DNA of 64,000 nt from Tenacibaculum todarodis (lineage in GTDB: Bacteria > Bacteroidota > Bacteroidia > Flavobacteriales > Flavobacteriaceae): NCBI RefSeq assembly GCF_001889045.1, contig NZ_CP018155.1:1235001-1299000 (forward strand), written 5' to 3'. How positions within the stretch are numbered: position 1 is the stretch's first letter; every line of letters starts with the position of its first letter. The position numbers and the translations under genes are program-made. Of the stretch, positions 7,551-21,831 are shown one piece after another. Below the pieces are notes generated by a model. The model was given only the letters and a program-made list of their open reading frames with translations. It was not told where the DNA came from and ran no database searches.

Positions 7551-8414
7551 ATGTCTCTAATTACTTTAACTACAGATTTCGGAACTAAAGATCACTTTGT
7601 AGGTGCTGTAAAAGGAGCTATCTACACAGAACTTCCTGATGTTAAAATAATTGACATTACACATCATATTACTCCTTTTAACATTACTGAAACTGCATAT
7701 ATTTTAAAAAATGCATATAAAAGTTTTCCTAAAGGAAGTATACATATTGTTGGTGTAGATTCAGAATTATCTATAGAAAACAAACATATTGCATTAGAAT
7801 TGGATGATCATTTTTTTGTATGTCCAGATAATGGATTAATTTCTATGATTGCTTCAGAAATTAACCCTACAAAGATTGTAGAAATTAATATCCATGATCG
7901 TATTCAAAGTAGTTTTCCTGTACTAGATGTTTTTGTACAAGTTGCTTGTCATATTGCTCGTGGAGGAAACTTAGGTGTAATTGGTAAAGAAATTAAAGAA
8001 TATAAAAAGTTAGTTGAAATTCAACCAAAAGTAAATCAAACACAAACTATTATTAATGGAGGCGTAATTTATATTGATAATTACGGAAATGTAATTAGCA
8101 ATATCAGTAAAAAGATGTTTAATGAAATTGGTAAAGGAAGACCTTTTAAAATTTCTGCACGTAGATATTCTTTTTCAAAAATATATAGTAGATATAATGA
8201 GTTTGTAGATTTTTCTGTACCAGAAGAACGCCGTAGAAATGATGGTGAACGATTAGCAATCTTTAATTCTGCTGGTTTTTTAGAAATTGCTGTATACAGA
8301 AGTAATTTAACCACTGTTGGAGGCGCATCTTCTTTGTTAGGAATGGATTATAGAGATACCATTTCTATTGAATTTGAAACTATTAAATCGCCAGAATTTA
8401 CAACTCTTAACTAA
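7551..8414 (+). CDS. SAM hydrolase / SAM-dependent halogenase family protein (DUF62)
   Basis: A 287-residue protein with the family hallmarks TTDFG at residues 7-11, DITHHI near 35-40, FVCPDNGL around 89-96, and a C-terminal beta domain with INSISKKMF- and GRPFKI-like segments. The family includes chlorinase and fluorinase enzymes, but the great majority are S-adenosylmethionine hydroxide adenosyltransferases, which split SAM into adenosine and methionine. The role is expected to be in SAM turnover. It starts a likely operon with the monooxygenase-fold protein 6 bp downstream and the acetyltransferase that overlaps it by 1 bp. Confidence 0.85.
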   Translation: MSLITLTTDFGTKDHFVGAVKGAIYTELPDVKIIDITHHITPFNITETAYILKNAYKSFPKGSIHIVGVDSELSIENKHIALELDDHFFVCPDNGLISMIASEINPTKIVEINIHDRIQSSFPVLDVFVQVACHIARGGNLGVIGKEIKEYKKLVEIQPKVNQTQTIINGGVIYIDNYGNVISNISKKMFNEIGKGRPFKISARRYSFSKIYSRYNEFVDFSVPEERRRNDGERLAIFNSAGFLEIAVYRSNLTTVGGASSLLGMDYRDTISIEFETIKSPEFTTLN

Positions 8415-8420
8415 AAAAGC

Positions 8421-8717
8421 ATGTTTGTACGCATTGTAAAATTAAGTTTTCACCCAGAAAAAATTGAAGAGTTTTTAGCAAATTTTGATGAAAAGAAAGC
8501 TTTTATTAGAAAATCTAAAGGTTGTTCTTTACTAGAGTTATACAGAGACAAAACAAATACCAATGTATTTTTCACCTATTCTTATTGGGAAACTGAGCAA
8601 GATTTAGAAAACTACAGAAATTCCGACTTATTTAAAGGAGTTTGGGCAAAAACAAAAGTGTTGTTTAATGACAAACCGCTTGCTTGGAGTGTTGATAAAA
8701 CAGAAAGTTTAGTGTAA
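8421..8717 (+). CDS. Antibiotic biosynthesis monooxygenase (ABM) family protein
   Basis: A 98-residue single-domain protein with a dimeric alpha/beta-barrel (ferredoxin-like) fold. The pattern MFVRIVKLSFHPEKIEEFLANF, then GCSLLELYRDK, then VFFTYSYWETEQDLENYRNS, then FKGVWAKTKVLF is that of ABM/quinol-monooxygenase-like proteins. Members range from real oxygenases to heme-handling and orphan proteins, so a reaction cannot be named. It sits 6 bp after the SAM-hydrolase stop and its stop overlaps the GNAT start, suggesting co-expression. Confidence 0.8.
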   Translation: MFVRIVKLSFHPEKIEEFLANFDEKKAFIRKSKGCSLLELYRDKTNTNVFFTYSYWETEQDLENYRNSDLFKGVWAKTKVLFNDKPLAWSVDKTESLV

Positions 8718-9262
8718 TGAATTTTAATTCTTTTCCTACTTTAAAAACTGAACGATTACTCTTACGTAAATCTAATTTGGATGATGCTGCTACTTTTTTA
8801 GAATTACGTTCAAACCCAATTATAAATACATATATTGAAAGAGAAATTCCTACAAAAATATCTCAAGCTGAAGATTTTATCAAAAAAATAACACAAGAAG
8901 AAATTGATAAGAAAAGTATTACTTGGTTAATTACATTAAAAGAGAACAATAAAGCAATTGGCTCAATTTGCATTTGGAATCTTAATCAAGAAAAACAATA
9001 TGGAGAAGTTGGTTATTCTTTACTTCCAGCGTTTTTTAAAAAAGGATTTATGAGTGAAGCCATGGAAACTGTTTTAGAATTTGGTTTTAATAAAATGAAG
9101 CTAAAAACTATTGAAGCCTTTACACATAAAAATAATATTGCTTCAATTGCGTTGTTAGAGAAGTACAATTTTGTTTTTCAACCAGAAAGAAAAGATGATG
9201 ACGTAGAAGATAATAGGGTTTATAAGATTGAAAAAGAGACAAGAATAAAGAGACAAGAATAA
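8717..9262 (+). CDS. GNAT family N-acetyltransferase (RimJ/RimL type)
   Basis: A 181-residue protein. It begins FPTLKTERLLLRKSNLDDAATFLELRSNP, the usual RimJ/RimL-type opening, and has the acetyl-CoA binding region EVGYSLLPAFFKKGFMSEAM around residues 95-115, then KTIEAFTHKNNIASIALLEKYNF. These enzymes acetylate protein N-termini or small amines; the target is unknown. The start codon overlaps the preceding stop (TAATG), so translation is probably coupled. The C-terminal end is lysine- and arginine-rich and simple (KETRIKRQE). Confidence 0.85.
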   Translation: MNFNSFPTLKTERLLLRKSNLDDAATFLELRSNPIINTYIEREIPTKISQAEDFIKKITQEEIDKKSITWLITLKENNKAIGSICIWNLNQEKQYGEVGYSLLPAFFKKGFMSEAMETVLEFGFNKMKLKTIEAFTHKNNIASIALLEKYNFVFQPERKDDDVEDNRVYKIEKETRIKRQE

Positions 9263-13286: not shown

Positions 13287-14216
13287 ATGAAAAAAATTTC
13301 AATCAAATCTATAAGTATTTTAAGTGTTTTTGCACTTTTACTTTTTACAAATTGTAAAAATTCAGAAACTAAAGAAGTTGCTGAAAAAGAAGTTAAAGAA
13401 GAAGTTAAAGCTGCAGCTGCAAAAATTTCTGCTCCAGCACCAAGTCCATTTTCAACTTTAAAACAAAAGGTTGGTTTAACAGATGTAACTTTAGAATACT
13501 CAAGACCAAGTATGAAAGGTCGTACAATTTTCGGAGATTTAGTTCCTTATGGAAAAACTTGGAGAACAGGTGCAAACGCTAACACAAAAATTACTTTTTC
13601 TACAGATGTAACAATTGGAGAAAAAAATGTAGCTGCAGGAACGTATGCCGTTTATACAAAACCAAATGAAAAATCTTGGGATATAATGTTGTATTCAGAT
13701 TCTGATAACTGGGGAAATCCTAAAGAATGGGATGCTGCTAAAGTTGTTGCAAGTACAAATGTAGAAGTACAAAAAATGCCAATGAAAATTGAAACGTTTA
13801 CTGCAACTTTTGACGATTTAACCAATAACAATGGAGTATTAGGTTTACTTTGGGAAGATGTATATGTTGGTATGCCATTTACAGTACCAACTGAGAAATT
13901 AGTGATGGCTTCTATTGATGAAGTTATGAAGGGAGAACCAAATGCAAGTGCATTTTATGATGCTGCTGTGTACTATAAAACTGCCGATAAAGATATAAAC
14001 CAAGCATTAACTTGGGTTGATAAAGCGATAGAAATGACTAAAGAAGATCCTAAGTTTTGGATGTTAAGACAACAATCTTTAATTCATGCAAAAGCTGGTA
14101 AAACTGCAACTGCTATTGCAGCTGCAAAACAATCTTTAGAATTAGCTGAAAAAGTAGGAAATGAAGGTTATGTAAAAATGAACAAAGCTTCTTTAGAAGA
14201 ATGGGGAGCAAAATAA
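13287..14216 (+). CDS. DUF2911 domain-containing lipoprotein
   Basis: A 309-residue exported lipoprotein. The signal peptide ends in a lipobox with Cys23 (LLFTNC). After a lysine/glutamate- and alanine-rich linker, a DUF2911 domain spans about residues 50-190, with SPFSTLKQKVGLTDVTLEYS, RPSMKGRTIFG and PYGKTWRTGANANTKITFS. The tail (about 200-309) is helical with TPR-like features (DINQALTWVDKAIEM, TATAIAAAKQSLELAEKVG). DUF2911 proteins are abundant in Bacteroidota but of unknown function. It is monocistronic and ended by a strong terminator. Confidence 0.9.
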   Translation: MKKISIKSISILSVFALLLFTNCKNSETKEVAEKEVKEEVKAAAAKISAPAPSPFSTLKQKVGLTDVTLEYSRPSMKGRTIFGDLVPYGKTWRTGANANTKITFSTDVTIGEKNVAAGTYAVYTKPNEKSWDIMLYSDSDNWGNPKEWDAAKVVASTNVEVQKMPMKIETFTATFDDLTNNNGVLGLLWEDVYVGMPFTVPTEKLVMASIDEVMKGEPNASAFYDAAVYYKTADKDINQALTWVDKAIEMTKEDPKFWMLRQQSLIHAKAGKTATAIAAAKQSLELAEKVGNEGYVKMNKASLEEWGAK

Positions 14217-14270: not shown

Positions 14271-14395
14271 GTGTCTTTATTTTTATGATTAAGATAAACA
14301 CCTCTTCTTTTACAGGAAATTTCCTTTCTTAATTTCATTTTTTTAACGCTACCAAACTTGGTACTTACCCTTGTGTCCGAACTACTGTATTCACC

Positions 14396-14403
14396 TAATT
14401 TTG
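14396..14403 (+). promoter_or_regulatory. Candidate promoter (-7 box) of the DUF2589-subtilase operon
   Basis: TAATTTTG matches TAnnTTTG, 95 bp before the first ATG of the operon. A TTG at 14371-14373 could be a weak -33 element. A short palindrome, TACCAAACTTGGTA, lies about 33 bp upstream of the box and might be an operator. No other good promoter-like sequence is visible between 14271 and 14498. Confidence 0.4.
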
Positions 14404-14498: not shown

Positions 14499-15329
14499 AT
14501 GAAAAAACTACAAACAATTTTAAAGCAAGATCATTCTAAAAAAACAAAAAAAGAATTGATCGAATTATTAACAGGAATTAATGAAATTGTCGGTGATGAT
14601 TTTGGGAAAATTACTGGTATTCAATTAAGTGAATTATCTAAAACCAAAAATGATGATTTGGTAGCAATTATAAATTCATTTAAAGAAAATTATGATGTAA
14701 AATGGGAAGAAAGTTTTGGAGAAGCTTCAACTAAAATATTAAAAACCATTTTAGCTCAAATAGAAAAAGATGAAAACCAGTTCTCTACCTCAAATGCTTC
14801 AGATGCCGATTTTGCTGCTGAACTAGGTAGTATCGATTTTGAAAACTTAATTGGTGGACCATTGAATGCCTGTGTTACAGCCCAAGCTAACGCATCTATG
14901 TCTACAGTTAACTTTATAAAAGAGGTTGGTTTTGAAGACGATGGGACTCTTCGAATGGTTGATTTTTCATACACAAAAACGGTACCTAATGATGATGGAA
15001 CAGGAACTACAACTGAAGATATATCATTAATTGTTCCTTTTGTATCTGTATTAAATATACCTAGTTTAAGAATAGAAACTTGTGAAGTAGATTTTAATGT
15101 TAAGTTAAATTCTGTTTACACAAAAGACGTAAGTAGCGAGTTTGGTATTGATGCAGATGTTAGTGGTGGTTGGGGACCTGTAAAATTTAAAGTTTCTGCT
15201 TCATACAAAAGATCTTCTAGCACAGGTGTAAAAGTAGAAAAAGAATATACAATGGGTGTAAAAGTTGTTGCGACTAACGATCAAATGCCTGGTGGATTAG
15301 AAAAAGTTTTAGGAATTTTATCTGAATAA
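14499..15329 (+). CDS. DUF2589 domain-containing protein
   Basis: A 276-residue cytoplasmic-looking protein without signal peptide. Residues 1-95 are helical and charged. A DUF2589 core starts at about residue 107: ELGSIDFENLIGGPLNACVT, then AQANASMSTVNFIKEVGF, and then a beta-rich part (DISLIVPFVSVLNIPSLRIE, TCEVDFNVKLNSVYTKDVSS) that ends in KFKVSASYKRSSSTGVKVEK. The segment LIGGPL-A-V-AQ is the hallmark of DUF2589, a family of unknown function. It is the first gene of a five-gene operon with gaps of 4, -1, 6 and 2 bp. The company of a protease and an inhibitor-like protein suggests that it is the protease substrate or a regulated effector (inference). Confidence 0.8.
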   Translation: MKKLQTILKQDHSKKTKKELIELLTGINEIVGDDFGKITGIQLSELSKTKNDDLVAIINSFKENYDVKWEESFGEASTKILKTILAQIEKDENQFSTSNASDADFAAELGSIDFENLIGGPLNACVTAQANASMSTVNFIKEVGFEDDGTLRMVDFSYTKTVPNDDGTGTTTEDISLIVPFVSVLNIPSLRIETCEVDFNVKLNSVYTKDVSSEFGIDADVSGGWGPVKFKVSASYKRSSSTGVKVEKEYTMGVKVVATNDQMPGGLEKVLGILSE

Positions 15330-15333
15330 AATT

Positions 15334-16029
15334 ATGATAAAGCTATCTGATTACATGGACTATCTCAACGAAGAGATAGTCCTTGCTAGAAAAAAAGCAG
15401 ACGAACAAGCAATACTAATTGCTAAAGAGTATGCTAAAGATCCGTATCTAAAATATTTTAGAGTACCTAGATTTACAATGCCTTCAGTTAAATTAAATAT
15501 TCCTATTAAAATTTCTGAATTAAACTCGCAAACAAAGTATAACTTTAAAATGGACGATGATGCTTTTATAAGCGAAGTAAATGACAAAATAGCCATAATA
15601 AATAAAGAAAAGAGTTTAAAAATAAACCCAATAAATAAGGAAACACTTAAAGCAGACGACTTTAAAAAAGTAGTTACAAAACTAGAAAAGGTAGATTATA
15701 GTTACGTTAAAAAGTTAGATGATAATTTAACCAAAGTAGATATTAAAGTACCTATAAAAAACATTGTTAAAAAACAAGGTTTTAGTGTTGCCAACAAAGA
15801 GCTAGAAAGTGAAGAAATGGCTACAATTTTAAAAGATGCTTTTAAAAATAGATACACACCAGTTTCTGCTAAGCTAGATGATATTTACTTCGATCCAAAT
15901 ACCAGTAATGAAACCGATAAAGGCAAAATTTTACTTACGTTAAATGTAGAAATGGTTGAAGAAGGGATTAGGATACATAATGCAACTGATGAAAAAGGAA
16001 ATAAAATTGAAGAAATAATTTTTGAATAA
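15334..16029 (+). CDS. DUF2589-partner protein, unknown function
   Basis: A 231-residue protein without signal peptide. The N-terminus is an amphipathic helix, MIKLSDYMDYLNEEIVLARK, continuing to DPYLKYFRVPRFTMPSVKLN, then alternating charged helices and short beta segments. The block of a helix of 'YLxxLNxEIxxAR' type followed by 'YFRVPRFxMP' reminds me of proteins found beside DUF2589 genes, but I cannot name a family. It starts 4 bp after the DUF2589 stop and its stop overlaps the next start (TAATG), so it is clearly co-translated. Membership in the same complex or pathway is inferred from this layout. Confidence 0.55.
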   Translation: MIKLSDYMDYLNEEIVLARKKADEQAILIAKEYAKDPYLKYFRVPRFTMPSVKLNIPIKISELNSQTKYNFKMDDDAFISEVNDKIAIINKEKSLKINPINKETLKADDFKKVVTKLEKVDYSYVKKLDDNLTKVDIKVPIKNIVKKQGFSVANKELESEEMATILKDAFKNRYTPVSAKLDDIYFDPNTSNETDKGKILLTLNVEMVEEGIRIHNATDEKGNKIEEIIFE

Positions 16030-16607
16030 TGAACGTATTAATTCATTTTAAAAAACAACAATTAGAAACTTTTATAAAACTACTTATTCTTGAGAATGAA
16101 AAGTTTATAAAAAAGGATTTTAATCTAGACAAATCATTAATGAAATTACTTAATGATGTTCAAGAATATTATAGGAGAATTGGAGAAAGTACAGAAGAAG
16201 GAAACGTCAGTCAATTAAAAACACACTTAGATATTGCTGTTTCTGGAATAGATCCGGTAAAATTAGAAAGAGTTAAAACTAGAAGAAGAGATATTGTAAA
16301 AATTGCTTGTTACCATTGTTTATCTAGTTTAAACCAAACTTTAGAGAATTCACTCGTTCTAGTAAAAAACATTATTAATGAAGCTACAGAAAACATTAAC
16401 CAAGTGCTTTTATCTGCATATCAAGCCAAATTAATTACAGATGCAATTATTAAAAAAGCAGATACAATAGACAAATGCACTTCTTTATGGGAAAAACTAA
16501 AAGAAAATGAGCAAATATTACTTTTAGATAAGAAATTAAAACTAACCATTTTACAACAAGATATAAGCATAATTTTAGATCAAGCTTTATCTAAACTTAA
16601 AAATTAA
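16029..16607 (+). CDS. Helical protein of the DUF2589-subtilase operon, unknown function
   Basis: A 192-residue protein that appears almost entirely alpha-helical, with coiled-coil-like stretches (LETFIKLLILENEKFIKKDF, NSLVLVKNIINEATENINQ, LKLTILQQDISIILDQALSK). Three cysteines lie in two spots (ACYHC, DKC). No membrane or signal segment is seen and no family is recognised. Its ATG overlaps the preceding stop by one base, and the subtilase gene begins 6 bp after its stop. Plausible roles are an adaptor or a scaffold, but this is only inference from position. Confidence 0.5.
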   Translation: MNVLIHFKKQQLETFIKLLILENEKFIKKDFNLDKSLMKLLNDVQEYYRRIGESTEEGNVSQLKTHLDIAVSGIDPVKLERVKTRRRDIVKIACYHCLSSLNQTLENSLVLVKNIINEATENINQVLLSAYQAKLITDAIIKKADTIDKCTSLWEKLKENEQILLLDKKLKLTILQQDISIILDQALSKLKN

Positions 16608-16613
16608 ACCACC

Positions 16614-17879
16614 ATGAAAACTACTAATAAACCTAAAAAATATATCATTCAATTAAAGGACGATAGCAAAAGTAGTCTTACAAAAGCTGCGAAAGAATTA
16701 AGTTTAAAAATTACGTCATCCTCAGAATTAAGTTCTAAAGTAAGAGCGCAAGATGTATTAGATTCAGGTAACGGATTGTTTCTTAAAAATTTAGGATTAG
16801 CAATTGTTGAAGACTATGAAGTAGAGAAACTTCATCATTTAACAAACGCATCATCTAACCCAATAATTTACTGGGAAAAAGAAAGGAAATTTAAACCTGT
16901 TACAGAGTTAGATTTATTAGATGAAATGAAAATTAATATCAATAATATGTCTGAGAAAATAGCGCAATTAAAAGAATTAATTGAAGCTAATAATAGACTC
17001 AACATCAATAAGAATTTAACTTGGGGTTTAAATGCAGTTGGAATTGAATTAAGTAATTATACCGGTAAAGGAATAGATATTGCTATTTTAGATACTGGTT
17101 TCTATAAAGATCATCCAGACTTTGTTGGAAGAAATATTTCTGGAAAATCTTTTGTTCCTGGAGAAAAATGGTATTTAGATGGACATGGACATGGAACTCA
17201 TTGTACAGGAACTGCTGCAGGAAGCATTTCCCTAGTAGATAATAAACGATATGGTGTTGCTCATGAAGCAAATATTGTTATTGGTAAAGTTTTAAGCGAT
17301 TCCGGAAGTGGTTCTACCAGTGGTATTATTGATGCTATTGATAATAGTTTAGAAAAAGGACATAATATTATATCAATGTCTTTAGGCTCTTCAGTAAAAA
17401 TTGGGGAAAAACCTTCACCAATTTTTGAACAAGTTGGAAGAAAAGCTTTAGAAAAAAACACATTAATAATTGCAGCAGCCGGTAACGACAGCAACAGACC
17501 AAGCTTACCAAAACCAGTTAGCAGTCCTGCAAATGCAGAATCTATAATGGCTGTTGCGGCTTTAGATGAAGCGTTAAAAGTAGCTAACTTTTCTAACGGA
17601 GGAATTAATGCAAGTAATGGAGGAAGAGTAGATATTTCTGCTCCTGGTGTAGATATATTTAGTTCATATTCAAAAAATGGTTCTCAAAATAAATTATACA
17701 CAACTATGAGTGGCACAAGTATGGCAACACCACATGTTGCAGGTATTGCTGCTTTATACTGGGAAGCATTCCCAAATTTATCGGCGGAAGGTATTTGGCT
17801 AAAATTAGAAAAAAGAGCAAAACAACTTTCTAACCAATTGTACAGAGACATTGGACAAGGAATAATACAAACAATATAA
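16614..17879 (+). CDS. Intracellular S8 family serine peptidase (subtilase)
   Basis: A 421-residue subtilisin-like protease with a complete catalytic set: Asp160 in IAILDTG, His193 in GHGHGTHCTG, oxyanion Asn291 in AAAGND, and Ser369 in SGTSMATPHVAG. The first 95 residues (KKYIIQLKDDSKSSLTKAAK to IIYWEKERKF) look like an inhibitor-I9/propeptide domain. Residues 100-135 form a short helical linker. There is no signal peptide and no type IX C-terminal domain, so it is predicted to act inside the cell, unlike most flavobacterial subtilases. It lies fourth in the operon, followed after 2 bp by a small protein resembling a second propeptide. The substrate is unknown; the DUF2589 protein is an obvious candidate. 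Confidence 0.93.
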   Translation: MKTTNKPKKYIIQLKDDSKSSLTKAAKELSLKITSSSELSSKVRAQDVLDSGNGLFLKNLGLAIVEDYEVEKLHHLTNASSNPIIYWEKERKFKPVTELDLLDEMKININNMSEKIAQLKELIEANNRLNINKNLTWGLNAVGIELSNYTGKGIDIAILDTGFYKDHPDFVGRNISGKSFVPGEKWYLDGHGHGTHCTGTAAGSISLVDNKRYGVAHEANIVIGKVLSDSGSGSTSGIIDAIDNSLEKGHNIISMSLGSSVKIGEKPSPIFEQVGRKALEKNTLIIAAAGNDSNRPSLPKPVSSPANAESIMAVAALDEALKVANFSNGGINASNGGRVDISAPGVDIFSSYSKNGSQNKLYTTMSGTSMATPHVAGIAALYWEAFPNLSAEGIWLKLEKRAKQLSNQLYRDIGQGIIQTI

Positions 17880-17881
17880 TT

Positions 17882-18082
17882 ATGTATGTTTATTTAGCTG
17901 TTTTAAAAGAAGATGTAATACTTAATAAAGATGTATTGAGTTACTTTGCAGACATGAATTTTACGCTACTTGCTTACTACCCAAAGTTAAGTATCATAAA
18001 AATTGAAAGCAAAGTTTCATTAAAAGACGTTACAGTAAGGTATATAAGTTCAATTGAACAAGAAAAAACTATAAATCTATAG
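17882..18082 (+). CDS. Small protein resembling a stand-alone subtilase propeptide/inhibitor I9
   Basis: A 66-residue protein. The order of predicted elements is strand (YVYLAVLKED), helix (NKDVLSYFADM), strand (FTLLAYYPK), strand (LSIIKIES), helix (SLKDVTV) and strand (YISSIEQEKTI). This beta-alpha-beta-beta-alpha-beta order and the terminal 'V-x-SIEQ' resemble subtilisin propeptides and I9 inhibitors, which end in a similar 'V-x-x-IE-D' strand that enters the active site. No homology search was possible, so this is inference. It follows the protease by 2 bp. Its last codons form the left arm of the operon's terminator hairpin. Confidence 0.6.
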   Translation: MYVYLAVLKEDVILNKDVLSYFADMNFTLLAYYPKLSIIKIESKVSLKDVTVRYISSIEQEKTINL

Positions 18083-18090
18083 TTTTTTCT
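18061..18090 (+). terminator. Terminator of the DUF2589-subtilase operon, overlapping the last codons
   Basis: AGAAAAAACTATA-AATC-TATAGTTTTTTCT is a perfect 13-bp stem with a 4-base loop, spanning the stop codon at 18080-18082. It is AT-rich, with the U-run inside the right arm. Confidence 0.7.
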
Positions 18091-18180
18091 TGGATCAAAA
18101 ACTTTATATTTTCTTTAACTTAAAAGTTAAGTACTTTTATCAAACTTTACTGATTGAATTTAAAAATACTTATATTAAAA

Positions 18181-19665
18181 ATGGAGAAGCATTTACTACT
18201 AATTATTTCTATCCTAACCATATTAAGCTGTAAAACAGCAGAAAAAAGCAGTCAAGAAGTAATTGATCCTGTTGAGTATTCAATGGATACTAATGCTGAT
18301 TTCTTATCAGAATATCCAGAAATAAATGCTATTTCAATAGGAATTTTTAAAGATGGAAAAAAACTCACCAAATATTACGGCGAAATTGATAAAGGAAAAA
18401 ATAACAAACCAAATGACAATTCTCTTTTTGAAATTGCGTCAGTAACAAAAACATTTACTGGATTTTTAACTGCACAAGCTGTTTTAGAAGGGAAACTAAA
18501 TTTAGAAGATGATATTAGAAAATATTTAAATGGCTCTTATCCTAATTTAGAATACCAAAGTCAACCCATTAAAATTAAAAATTTACTAACACATTCAGCA
18601 GGTTTTACACGTGATTTTTCTTCAACCTTGCAAAAATTTTTCTTAGATGATATTTCAGAAAGTGATGAAAAAGAACTCAGAACTTACAATAAAGAAAAAC
18701 TTTTAGAAGACTTAAATAACTTTGAACTTAATACAACTCCAAACACTACTTACAACTACTCTCCTATTGTTGGTCCTGAAATTTTAGCAATACTTCTTGA
18801 AAACGTTTATCAAAAACCATATTCAACGCTTTTAAATGAATTCATTTTAAAAAAGATTGGCATGGAAAATACAGCGATTCATTTAGATGAAAATGCTAAA
18901 AAACATATAGTAAATGGCTACACTGATAAAGGTAAATTAGTAAAACCTGCAATTGAAATTTTAAACGGAGCAGGTGGCGGAATAAAATCAACAATTCCAG
19001 ATTTACTAAAGTATATTGAATACTTATTGGAAAGCAAAAACCCTGTAATTAAAGAAATGAAAAAGCCTTTGTTTTATGACAAAGAAGACGATGAAGATTA
19101 CGGTTATTTTTGGCGTTTAAACGATAAAGATATATTACATAACGGCGGAACAGGCGGAAGTGCAAATTGGGTAATTATATTACCAGAATCTAACTGTGGT
19201 TTTACAGTTCATATTAATTCTAACGGAGATACCTCAGGAGATTTAATAAATGCTATTGCTTTTAATATCTATAGAGATATGGCGAGCTACCCAGAAAAAA
19301 ACATGCATCAACCTGTTAGAAAAGCAATTTTAGAAAACACAAAAAACGGTATACTTTATTATAAAAATTTAAAGAAAAACAACCCGTCTAACTATAACTT
19401 TCACGATAAAAACGTATTAAATAATATTGGTTACGATTTACTTGGTGAAAACAGAATTACTGATGCAATACAGGTATTTCAATTATTAGTTACTGAATTT
19501 CCCAACTCAGCAAATGCGTATGACAGTTTAGGTGAAGGTTATTATAAAAACAAACAATACAATTTATCTTTAATAAACTATAAAAAATCTCTGGAGTTAA
19601 ATCCAAAAAGTACAAATCCAGTAAAAATGATTGAGAAAATTAATGAGATTTTAAATGAAGAATAA
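18181..19665 (+). CDS. Serine hydrolase (class C beta-lactamase/PBP fold) with C-terminal TPR, lipoprotein
   Basis: A 494-residue lipoprotein from the ATG at 18181 (an upstream in-frame TTG at 18154 would place extra residues before the signal peptide). The lipobox Cys is residue 17 (TILSC). The beta-lactamase-fold domain has the nucleophile motif SVTK at 87-90, a YNYS segment in the position of the YxN motif, and HNGGTGG in the place of KTG. The C-terminal part (about 390-494) has a TPR-like repeat (NAYDSLGEGYYKNKQYNLSL). Such proteins are periplasmic esterases, peptidases or carboxypeptidases; the substrate cannot be told. It is convergent and directly abutting with the 19666 gene. Confidence 0.85.
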   Translation: MEKHLLLIISILTILSCKTAEKSSQEVIDPVEYSMDTNADFLSEYPEINAISIGIFKDGKKLTKYYGEIDKGKNNKPNDNSLFEIASVTKTFTGFLTAQAVLEGKLNLEDDIRKYLNGSYPNLEYQSQPIKIKNLLTHSAGFTRDFSSTLQKFFLDDISESDEKELRTYNKEKLLEDLNNFELNTTPNTTYNYSPIVGPEILAILLENVYQKPYSTLLNEFILKKIGMENTAIHLDENAKKHIVNGYTDKGKLVKPAIEILNGAGGGIKSTIPDLLKYIEYLLESKNPVIKEMKKPLFYDKEDDEDYGYFWRLNDKDILHNGGTGGSANWVIILPESNCGFTVHINSNGDTSGDLINAIAFNIYRDMASYPEKNMHQPVRKAILENTKNGILYYKNLKKNNPSNYNFHDKNVLNNIGYDLLGENRITDAIQVFQLLVTEFPNSANAYDSLGEGYYKNKQYNLSLINYKKSLELNPKSTNPVKMIEKINEILNEE

Positions 19666-20031
19666 TTAATTATCAAACGGTAACAATTCTCTATTTTCTA
19701 TTGCTTCCTCAATATCTACAGTAATATATCTGTGGCTATTGAAAAACTTCCTAGAATTAACAAGTTTAATTATTGCAACACGTTTTCCTTTATTGTCTTG
19801 TTTTATTGAAGTTATTATAACTTTTTCTCCCTTAATATTTTTATAATTTGCTAATCCTCCTTTTTTTATAATAAAATTATCTTTTGGAAAATTAATATGC
19901 TTATAATTATTAAATTTTACACTTCCTATAATAAATATATCTCCAGAGTTAAAATCTGATTCTGAACTCTGAGAAAACATAAAGAGAGTAATAAAAAATG
20001 CTAAAACTGTACTTAAAATATTATTTTTCAT
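19666..20031 (-). CDS. Secreted hypothetical protein, 121 aa
   Basis: A 121-residue protein with an N-terminal signal peptide (NILSTVLAFFITLFMFSQS). The mature part is beta-rich and basic (GDIFIIGSVKFNNYKHINFP, GEKVIITSIKQDNKGKRVAI). No domain is recognised. Its stop touches the stop of the serine hydrolase gene, and the SSS symporter gene begins downstream on the same strand after a gap. Nothing in the context suggests a function. Confidence 0.5.
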   Translation of the reverse strand: MKNNILSTVLAFFITLFMFSQSSESDFNSGDIFIIGSVKFNNYKHINFPKDNFIIKKGGLANYKNIKGEKVIITSIKQDNKGKRVAIIKLVNSRKFFNSHRYITVDIEEAIENRELLPFDN

Positions 20032-20121: not shown

Positions 20122-21831
20122 TCAACTAACCTCTTCAAAAACATCTTTTTTCTTCCCCATAAACACCTGCAAAATAATTGCAATAAACATCACCAAACCA
20201 CAACCTAAAGCGTTGAGCCATAAATACGGTAACCAATCTAAAAGAAATACCCAGACAATCAATGCCTGCGTAATTAAAGCAGCTATAAAAACTGCGTTTC
20301 CTTTCACAAATTTTATAAAGAAAGCAAGTAAGAAAATACCCAAGACATTTCCATAAAAAATAGAACCAATAATATTTACTAATTGAATTAAATTATCAAA
20401 TAAATTGGCAACACAAGCAACGGAAATAGCTATAAGTCCCCAAAGTAGTGTAAACCATTTAGACGCTTTTACATAATGTTCATCGCTCTTTTCTTCGCCA
20501 ACATTTCGTTTGTATAAGTCAATTGCAGTTGTACTTGCCAATGCATTTAATTCTGATGCGGTAGAAGACATTGCGGCAGATAAAATTACGGCTAATAAAA
20601 GTCCGATTAATCCTCTTGGTAAATTGTTGATTATAAAATGAATAAACACATAATCCTTATCGTTAGACTCTATTTTCTTGATTGATTTTTCATTCACCTT
20701 TTCAATAATTTCTTTGGCTGAAGCTTTTAACGCTAAATCTCTTTCGTTTAATAATTGAATTTTCTCTTTTTCTTCCACCTGAAAACCATCTAAAAATATG
20801 GCTCTTTTATCATTTTCAATTTCAATATGTTCCGCTTCTAACTGTTGATATTCAGCAACATATTCAGATCTTAAAACCTCTTCATTTGCGCCAGGATTAA
20901 AGTTTAAAGGCGATGCGTTAAATTGATAAAAAACAAAAACCATAACACCAATTAACAAGATAAAAAACTGCATTGGCACTTTTAACAATCCGTTAAAAAT
21001 CAAACCTAATTGGCTTTCTCTAACCGATTTACCAGATAAATAACGCTGAACCTGACTTTGGTCTGTACCAAAATAGGATAACATCAAAAACGTTCCTCCT
21101 AAAATACCTGTCCAAACGGTGTATCTATTACTTAAATCGAAAGAAAAATCTAAGACTTCCATTTTATTACTCGCGCCCGCAATTTCAAGTGCTTTTGTAA
21201 ATGTAATATTTGCTGGAAGCTGACTCATAATCATAAAAAATGCAATTAACATTCCAACAAAAATGATAATCATTTGTTGTTTTTGCGTTACGTTTACCGC
21301 CTTTGTTCCTCCAGAAACCGTGTAAATAATTACTAAGAACCCAATTACAATGTTTAGCAATAGTAAATCCCATCCTAAAACTGCCGACAAGATAATTGCA
21401 GGTGCAAAAATGGTAATTCCGGCTGCCAAACCACGCTGAATTAAAAATAAAATTGCGGCTAAACTTCTTGTTTTTAAATCGAATCTTCCTTCCAAAAACT
21501 CATAAGCTGTATAGACTTTTAATTTGTGATAAATAGGGATAAAAACCAAGCAAATAATAACCATTGCAATTGGCAATCCAAAGTAGAATTGCACAAAACC
21601 CATTCCGCTATGAAACGCTTGCCCTGGCGTAGATAAAAACGTTATTGCACTCGCTTGCGTTGCCATAACTGACAATCCAATTGTCCACCATTTAGAGTCG
21701 TTTCCTCCTTTAATATAGTCAGTTACGTTCTTATTTTTTCGAGTTACGTAGGTTCCGTAAGCAACTATAAAAATTAAAGTTGCCGATAAAATTATCCAAT
21801 CTATTGCGTGTAATTTACTTGCTACTTCCAT
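20122..21831 (-). CDS. Sodium:solute symporter (SSS family)
   Basis: A 569-residue inner-membrane transporter with about 13 hydrophobic helices. Diagnostic regions are VTDYIKGGNDSKWWTIGLSV (about 35-55), MATQASAITFLSTPGQAFHS, FEGRFDLKTRSLA-like AYEFLEGRFDL, and ILSAAMSSTASELNALASTT near 420. An acidic hydrophilic insertion (about residues 305-395) separates the two halves, as in several Bacteroidota SSS proteins. Transport is sodium-driven; the substrate (sugar, amino acid, sialic acid and others are possible) is not predictable. A 35-residue membrane protein gene ends 3 bp upstream and is probably co-expressed. Confidence 0.9.
   Translation of the reverse strand: MEVASKLHAIDWIILSATLIFIVAYGTYVTRKNKNVTDYIKGGNDSKWWTIGLSVMATQASAITFLSTPGQAFHSGMGFVQFYFGLPIAMVIICLVFIPIYHKLKVYTAYEFLEGRFDLKTRSLAAILFLIQRGLAAGITIFAPAIILSAVLGWDLLLLNIVIGFLVIIYTVSGGTKAVNVTQKQQMIIIFVGMLIAFFMIMSQLPANITFTKALEIAGASNKMEVLDFSFDLSNRYTVWTGILGGTFLMLSYFGTDQSQVQRYLSGKSVRESQLGLIFNGLLKVPMQFFILLIGVMVFVFYQFNASPLNFNPGANEEVLRSEYVAEYQQLEAEHIEIENDKRAIFLDGFQVEEKEKIQLLNERDLALKASAKEIIEKVNEKSIKKIESNDKDYVFIHFIINNLPRGLIGLLLAVILSAAMSSTASELNALASTTAIDLYKRNVGEEKSDEHYVKASKWFTLLWGLIAISVACVANLFDNLIQLVNIIGSIFYGNVLGIFLLAFFIKFVKGNAVFIAALITQALIVWVFLLDWLPYLWLNALGCGLVMFIAIILQVFMGKKKDVFEEVS

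Follow-up and report, generated by a model that had tools for sequence, protein, structure and literature searches.

What does a subtilase without a signal peptide do next to a member of DUF2589, a family with no known function? The question is raised by five consecutive genes, here called A to E, in a stretch of 64,000 nucleotides from Tenacibaculum todarodis (contig NZ_CP018155.1, positions 1,235,001 to 1,299,000, forward strand), which is referred to below as the window. A is the DUF2589 protein, D the subtilase and E a small protein that may inhibit D. The best explanation, to which we give a little less than an even chance, is that D, held in check by E, cuts off an N-terminal extension of A and frees the DUF2589 core. 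The comparison presented here offers DUF2589 a testable role, with a defined linker in A and a putative inhibitor of the protease. Loci and genomes used in the comparison are cited by number (L and G, respectively).

A scan of a collection of species genomes with A yielded 33 related loci. The order A-B-C-D is kept in 31 of these (L014–L044), with genes that mostly touch or overlap. E is present in 30 of the 31 (29 detected with phmmer and one, in L025, by eye) and is missing from L039. Since the B and D frames are broken in L039, D is split in L019 and A is split in L020, all five genes are unbroken in 28 of the 31 loci. The hosts belong to Tenacibaculum, Leeuwenhoekiella and Chryseobacterium (28 records), all Flavobacteriales, with one Bacteroidales bin in addition. 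The nearest public relative is Tenacibaculum aquimarinum (L014), whose A protein is 99% identical. Comparison with L014 places A–D under strong purifying selection, with ratios of nonsynonymous to synonymous substitution rates (dN/dS) of 0.02 for A, 0.01 for B, 0.05 for C and 0.06 for D; E evolves faster and is the fastest of the five (0.42). The synonymous rates are 0.27–0.31 for A–E, 0.24–0.61 for seven flanking genes and 0.70 for the gene upstream of the operon. The original prediction had treated the five genes as one conserved unit, and both the gene order and the dN/dS values of A–D agree with it. In Chryseobacterium, two genes that flank L016 recur in all 27 other loci, so that the operon occupies one chromosomal site; with the selection on its genes, this identifies it as a resident that is kept by selection. 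A Theionarchaea contig (L046) has only A and B, with B behind A.

The clearest link between the protease and the DUF2589 protein lies in the length of A. Residues 114–274 match DUF2589 (PF11655, 8.8e-30), and the extension was measured as the residues preceding the ELxSxDF motif that opens the core. In all 36 loci with D it is 106–134 residues long, although the upper values depend on the chosen start; because L011 and L015 are one place, these loci represent 35 distinct ones. A-B-C operons without a recognised protease have short A proteins: the extension is 5–15 residues in 21 of 21 operons in which B and C were matched, and 5–7 residues in 11 of 11 further short operons, where an internal methionine was taken as the start in L149 and L151. 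None of these 32 operons has a long extension, a count that excludes L097 (where the extension is absent and C is beyond the reach of its profile) and any DUF2589 gene not accompanied by B and C. Among the loci read, the extension occurs only with proteases. The A protein of L045, which adjoins a trypsin-like protease, has an extension of at most 82 residues, or about 25 if a later start is used. That of L046 has 89 residues from the first start, with an internal methionine six residues ahead of the motif. The C terminus of the long A proteins comes a few residues earlier than that of the short ones, and the part linked to proteases is N-terminal.

The same association was seen within Chryseobacterium, the genus of G160, where A was found by profile in 40 of 98 genomes and is long in 29. 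D (E < 1e-100) is present in 28 of these 29 genomes and in 0 of the 69 others, always 1300–1466 bases downstream of the long A and on the same strand. The only long A without D comes from a genome that is 75% complete (G633). Fisher's test, without correction for kinship, gives P = 1e-23 for the association in the 98 genomes. Elsewhere in the genus there are four weaker D matches (8e-66 to 1e-75).

The predicted model of A has a helical extension of fairly sure structure, with block means of 70–82 for residues 1–70 in the predicted local distance difference test (pLDDT), whereas residues 85–112 fall below 50. This linker was aligned in 45 long A proteins (less than 90% identical, drawn from 121; database proteins whose gene context was not seen). 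The invariant positions are F95, F105 and A106, with D91, A100, A103, D104 and A107 nearly so; F105 and A106 occur in 45 of 45 sequences and A107 in 44 of 45. From E108 onward, the conserved positions are those of the core motif. The linker is apparently disordered yet conserved, and a cut within it would give A a start closely resembling that of the short family members. Linker conservation and the protease-linked extension together form the main mechanistic clue, from which we infer the cut itself.

D is, by profile and catalytic triad, a member of the S8 peptidase family. Residues 151–402 match Peptidase_S8 (PF00082) at 2.1e-50, with 172 bits against a cut-off of 21.8. The motifs DTG, HGTH and GTSMA fit the Asp, His and Ser patterns of S8 peptidases, and all 7 D proteins that were aligned keep the triad positions. 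The earlier naming of the first gene as DUF2589 and of the fourth as a subtilase with an intact triad is therefore upheld by both profiles and the motifs. Residues 1–95 of D look like a cis prodomain in their layout only. D scored 145 bits with the type VII secretion mycosin model TIGR03921, under its cut-off of 278.75. The PADLOC label "subtilase" (1.7e-32 for D) was rejected as evidence for a defence function because ordinary S8 proteins also match: four of four I9-bearing S8 proteins and two of two D-like proteins do so more weakly (1e-22 to 1e-23).

E was modelled with high confidence (pLDDT 91; predicted template modelling score, pTM, 0.77). When the model was compared with the PDB, the 22 best rows of one aligner were all propeptides, prodomains or the inhibitor POIA1. 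E is thus predicted to fold like subtilase propeptides and POIA1, in keeping with the original description of the 66-residue protein as propeptide-like, and is a putative inhibitor of D. By sequence, E has 14 matches in the PDB up to an E value of 10, with no propeptide among them. Profile comparison of E with the start of D gave probabilities of 7.4% and 2.2%, which do not support homology, and the I9 profile has no match in the genome of T. todarodis. Known stand-alone subtilase inhibitors are likewise described as lacking significant sequence similarity in the available text of PMC6993865.

These features are consistent with the following mechanism. E would keep D off until a cue from inside the cell, perhaps the loss of the fast-evolving E, frees the protease. 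D would then cleave A within the conserved linker that immediately precedes the DUF2589 core, and the extension would be removed. The freed core, with a start nearly that of naturally short DUF2589 proteins, would work alongside B and C, and the cell envelope would be its most likely place of action. The original prediction had included the switching of the DUF2589 protein by the protease; the extension that goes with the protease and the different protease of L045 speak for the switch, whereas the effector function is a guess.

Several observations weigh against this mechanism. The E model has a single helix, whereas the propeptides have two according to the available text of PMC6993865, and none of 13 E members scanned matches the I9 profile; the hhalign comparison of E with I9 gave a probability of 0.1%. 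The start of D matches no I9 profile (hhalign probability 0.4%), and the likeness between the end of its presumed prodomain and the linker of A was judged by eye. The extension of A could dock the protease rather than be cleaved. The model of A, poor overall (pLDDT 60, pTM 0.32) and too weak for a comparison with the gasdermin fold, has no significant fold matches. Recognition of proteases relied on just two motif patterns. The protease of L045 scores 26.7 bits with PF13365 (1.1e-5) against a cut-off of 27.6, and the start of its A is uncertain. The Chryseobacterium operons share one site, and 13 of the 32 short A-B-C operons likewise lie at one site, beside the core patatin gene, so that both sets represent few independent events. 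Most DUF2589 genes seen have no S8 neighbour, contrary to the expectation that the family would be linked to such proteases elsewhere. Nor are the five genes an inseparable module: they vary, but as two blocks, which occur together in 31 loci. The tests first put forward to refute the module idea thus give a mixed answer.

The two blocks are an A-B-C cassette and a D-E cassette, joined in this operon and each found without the other. A-B-C without a recognised protease is common among the Bacteroidota loci read. A pair resembling D-E occurs in L154 (4379–5982), where a D-like protease is followed after 2 bases by an E-like gene of 67 amino acids (E profile, 1.4e-5) and the fetched stretch contains no DUF2589. 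In L155 (4085–5589) and L156 (4439–5943), a D-like protease adjoins a gene of 77 amino acids that is beyond the reach of the E profile. All three pairs come from Chryseobacterium-group genomes, and the L155 and L156 stretches also lack DUF2589. L045, a Persicitalea bin, has A-B-C followed by the trypsin-like protease in the place of D. The gene of 96 amino acids behind that protease was considered as a prodomain copy and dropped, as it gave no alignment.

Other DUF2589 loci encode different hydrolases on the same strand. In a Burkholderia stagnalis plasmid record (L108, 6998–9012), two DUF2589 genes are followed by an overlapping phage lysozyme gene (PF00959, 1.3e-42) whose product has no signal-like start. 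GH25 genes occur in L089 and in L153, which is the odd one of 12 short-A loci and has a different layout. An N-acetylmuramidase gene lies about 2 kb behind DUF2589 in L105 and a CHAP gene about 0.3 kb behind it in L088; a peptidoglycan-binding domain was found in L097, Trypsin_2 in L080 and an endolysin-like protein in L009 (phrog_33083, 3e-16). Most of these hydrolases have no signal-like hydrophobic start, although the GH25 protein of L089 has one. The Pfam scan covered 31 neighbouring genes picked by eye; 7 have such a domain above cut-off (the M15 and patatin genes of L143 are not counted) and 13 have no match. As no control set was counted, the link to hydrolases is a lead rather than an enrichment. 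Of 12 short-A loci fetched from the genus of G160, 11 adjoin patatin and M15 peptidase genes, which were rejected as partners of A-B-C. Among the 98 genomes of that genus, 97 have the patatin gene, and the patatin-M15 pair stands without A-B-C in L157, which identifies a core locus.

These neighbours suggest the strongest of the rival explanations, which we nevertheless consider unlikely: A-B-C would be a shared carrier or membrane-passage module with hydrolases as interchangeable cargo, D would be the working enzyme, E would protect the producer and the extension would be a docking piece. Differing hydrolases at L108, L089, L153, L105, L088, L045, L080 and L009 would fit, as would the rapid evolution of E, since immunity proteins often evolve fast. 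However, many A-B-C operons have no such enzyme alongside, no secretion or delivery genes were noticed when the open reading frames of the window were looked over by eye, and the hydrolase neighbours, uncounted against a control, include an apparent patatin link that proved to be a core gene.

A role in housekeeping or stress proteolysis, in which A-B-C would bind or present damaged proteins, D degrade them and E throttle D, with no part in death or defence, seems to us improbable. Retention of the unit at one site across many species of a genus and the strong purifying selection between the two Tenacibaculum relatives are what it would lead one to expect, and SecB is among the best, though not significant, matches of the weak A model. 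That model is a poor basis for the SecB matches, no ATPase family is matched in A–E, and the distribution of the operon is patchy. D occurs in 28 of the 98 species of the genus of G160 and DUF2589 in 6 of the 149 genomes from the family and 28 of the 395 from the phylum; the C profile matches 7 of 395 genomes of the class, of which six also have DUF2589 and the seventh is a weak match (7e-4). Equally hard to credit is that D-E is an independent protease-inhibitor pair that shares a promoter with its neighbour and does not act on A: the pairs in L154–L156 and the 32 A-B-C loci without a recognised protease are as it would have them, but the fixed order in 31 loci, the mostly touching or overlapping genes and the restriction of the extension to loci with proteases argue against it.

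The features of the operon are collected in Table 1.

Table 1. Coordinates in the window of the five genes and associated features
Feature	Position	Strand	Description
Gene A	14499-15329	+	Open reading frame, 276 amino acids; DUF2589 protein, N-terminal extension (1-107) and core from residue 108
Gene B	15334-16029	+	Open reading frame, 231 amino acids; second gene of the A-B-C core
Gene C	16029-16607	+	Open reading frame, 192 amino acids; third gene of the A-B-C core, given as helical in the original description
Gene D	16614-17879	+	Open reading frame, 421 amino acids; S8 subtilase without signal peptide
Gene E	17882-18082	+	Open reading frame, 66 amino acids; predicted subtilase-propeptide-like fold, putative inhibitor of D
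Promoter-like site	14371-14403	+	TTG at 14371, 22 bases, TAATTTTG at 14396-14403; script pattern match
Linker of A, residues 85-107	14751-14819	+	ADFAA conserved ahead of the core, model confidence low; region in which cleavage is proposed
Terminator-like hairpin	18059-18092	+	15-bp perfect stem, 4-base loop; stop codon of E inside the span

The five genes are separated by 4, −1, 6 and 2 bp, as first described, and the −7 box reported before the operon is part of a promoter-like TTG-N22-box arrangement, which we take to follow the Bacteroidota-type consensus. As the + strand of the window contains 48 instances of its octamer pattern, the site alone is weak evidence. The perfect hairpin reported after the operon does have a perfect 15-bp stem (of 2000 stretches of 76 bases drawn at random from the window, 5 have a stem as long), but its 5′ arm lies within the last codons of E, so that it spans the stop codon rather than following the gene. 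The claim that none of the proteins has a signal peptide was confirmed by a Kyte-Doolittle scan: A–E have no signal-peptide-like or membrane-helix-like hydrophobic stretch, the best 19-residue mean being 1.46, in the middle of A, and no mean exceeding 0.88 in the first 43 residues of each protein. In profile scans of Pfam and NCBIfam, no family scores above its cut-off with B, C or E, and homology between A and B received a probability of 2.6% in profile comparison. The genome of T. todarodis has one DUF2589 gene and one D gene. A phage origin was considered and rejected: two queries of viral contigs gave no relative, tblastn gave one unannotated phage record, and A has no PHROG match.

The gene upstream of the operon (13287–14216) has a match in 40 of 40 Tenacibaculum genomes, 36 of them at 2e-40 or better. 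The gene that follows its homologue differs among five relatives fetched, so no clean empty site was read. In G548 (L120, 6358–8699), an HpaII-type restriction-modification pair stands at the operon's place (PF09561, 2.1e-135; PF00145, 2.8e-104), one case that hints at a variable site. The upstream gene shares just 56% identity with its counterpart in T. aquimarinum (L014, 8877–9719), compared with 96–99% for A–D and 82% for E, so that one copy or the other has probably been replaced. Between the operon and a symporter-like gene (20122–21831), the window has a beta-lactamase-fold/TPR gene and a small gene (18154–20031), neither of which was found at the corresponding place in L014.

A search for diverse homologues of DUF2589 proteins gave 3484 hits, and further arrangements were seen at other DUF2589 loci. 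A second layout, with two or three DUF2589-like genes, occurs in L089, L096, L091, L153 and L080; all of these but L080 were seen to encode a small cysteine-bearing protein of 63–77 amino acids, the other genes of the layout being GH25, trypsin-like or unassigned, and L096 and L091 have in common an unassigned protein of 121–142 amino acids. In L101 (2622–6818), an A-B-C operon is followed after about 230 bases by a gene of the SpvB/TcdB kind, identified by Pfam match. In L090, a phage-type integrase gene (7708–8904) immediately precedes an A-B-C operon, which suggests that this operon is carried on an integrating element.

As far as the open-licence PubMed Central literature shows, the system is undescribed, as had been suggested (subscription papers and preprints lie outside this scope). 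PF11655 has no mention there, and DUF2589 appears in a single paper, PMC3949148, whose available text contains a passing transcriptome remark on it for AF0414–AF0417. Known systems share parts of the arrangement. The anti-phage system IetAS contains an S8 protease, and D is a weak match to its models (2.1e-8); an ordinary S8 protein scores 6e-9, however, and A–E include no ATPase family. The available text of PMC7159879 describes NTP (nucleoside triphosphate)-dependent conflict systems that use trypsin, caspase or S8 peptidases in multi-gene operons, to which this operon bears a likeness, although A–E match no NTPase, NucA or EAD family; DUF2589 is absent from the main text of that paper. Closer to E are POIA1, the yeast peptidase B inhibitor and SUB1-ProM (MEROPS I9), which share the small propeptide-like fold, and the SUB1-ProM gene adjoins subtilase genes as E adjoins D (available text of PMC6993865). 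Unlike these stand-alone inhibitors, E is bacterial, has 66 amino acids, one modelled helix and no export signal, and belongs to a DUF2589 operon, in which its inhibitory role is putative.

The arrangement as a whole recalls protease-switched cell-death systems, among which the bacterial gasdermins are the nearest comparison. Searches of Pfam, NCBIfam and PADLOC gave no gasdermin match for A, the presence of bacterial gasdermin models in them being unverified. The available text of PMC9612521 places gasdermin family members near proteases, lysozymes, amidases and a phospholipase, and describes the release of the active form by cleavage. The protease is encoded beside the effector, as D is beside A, and other members lie near lysozymes or amidases, as do some DUF2589 operons. 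Release of an active form, established for the gasdermins, is what we propose for A. The part that would be removed is about 107 N-terminal residues in A, against a C-terminal peptide of about 20 residues in gasdermins, although by sequence A may also have an inhibitory C terminus; the operon differs also in that its protease, a subtilase, is paired with a protein of propeptide fold and that B and C are conserved with it. A wider proposition, which we regard as distinctly doubtful, is that DUF2589 proteins of bacteria and archaea form a new effector family, lytic or acting on membranes, with no recognisable relation to gasdermins but with a like use: free beside endolysins in some operons, and here as a precursor that stays locked until it is opened by its own subtilase, which is under a stand-alone inhibitor of propeptide fold. 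If the proposed cleavage of A is correct, the operon would represent a protease-switched effector module outside the gasdermins, controlled in bacteria by a free propeptide mimic.

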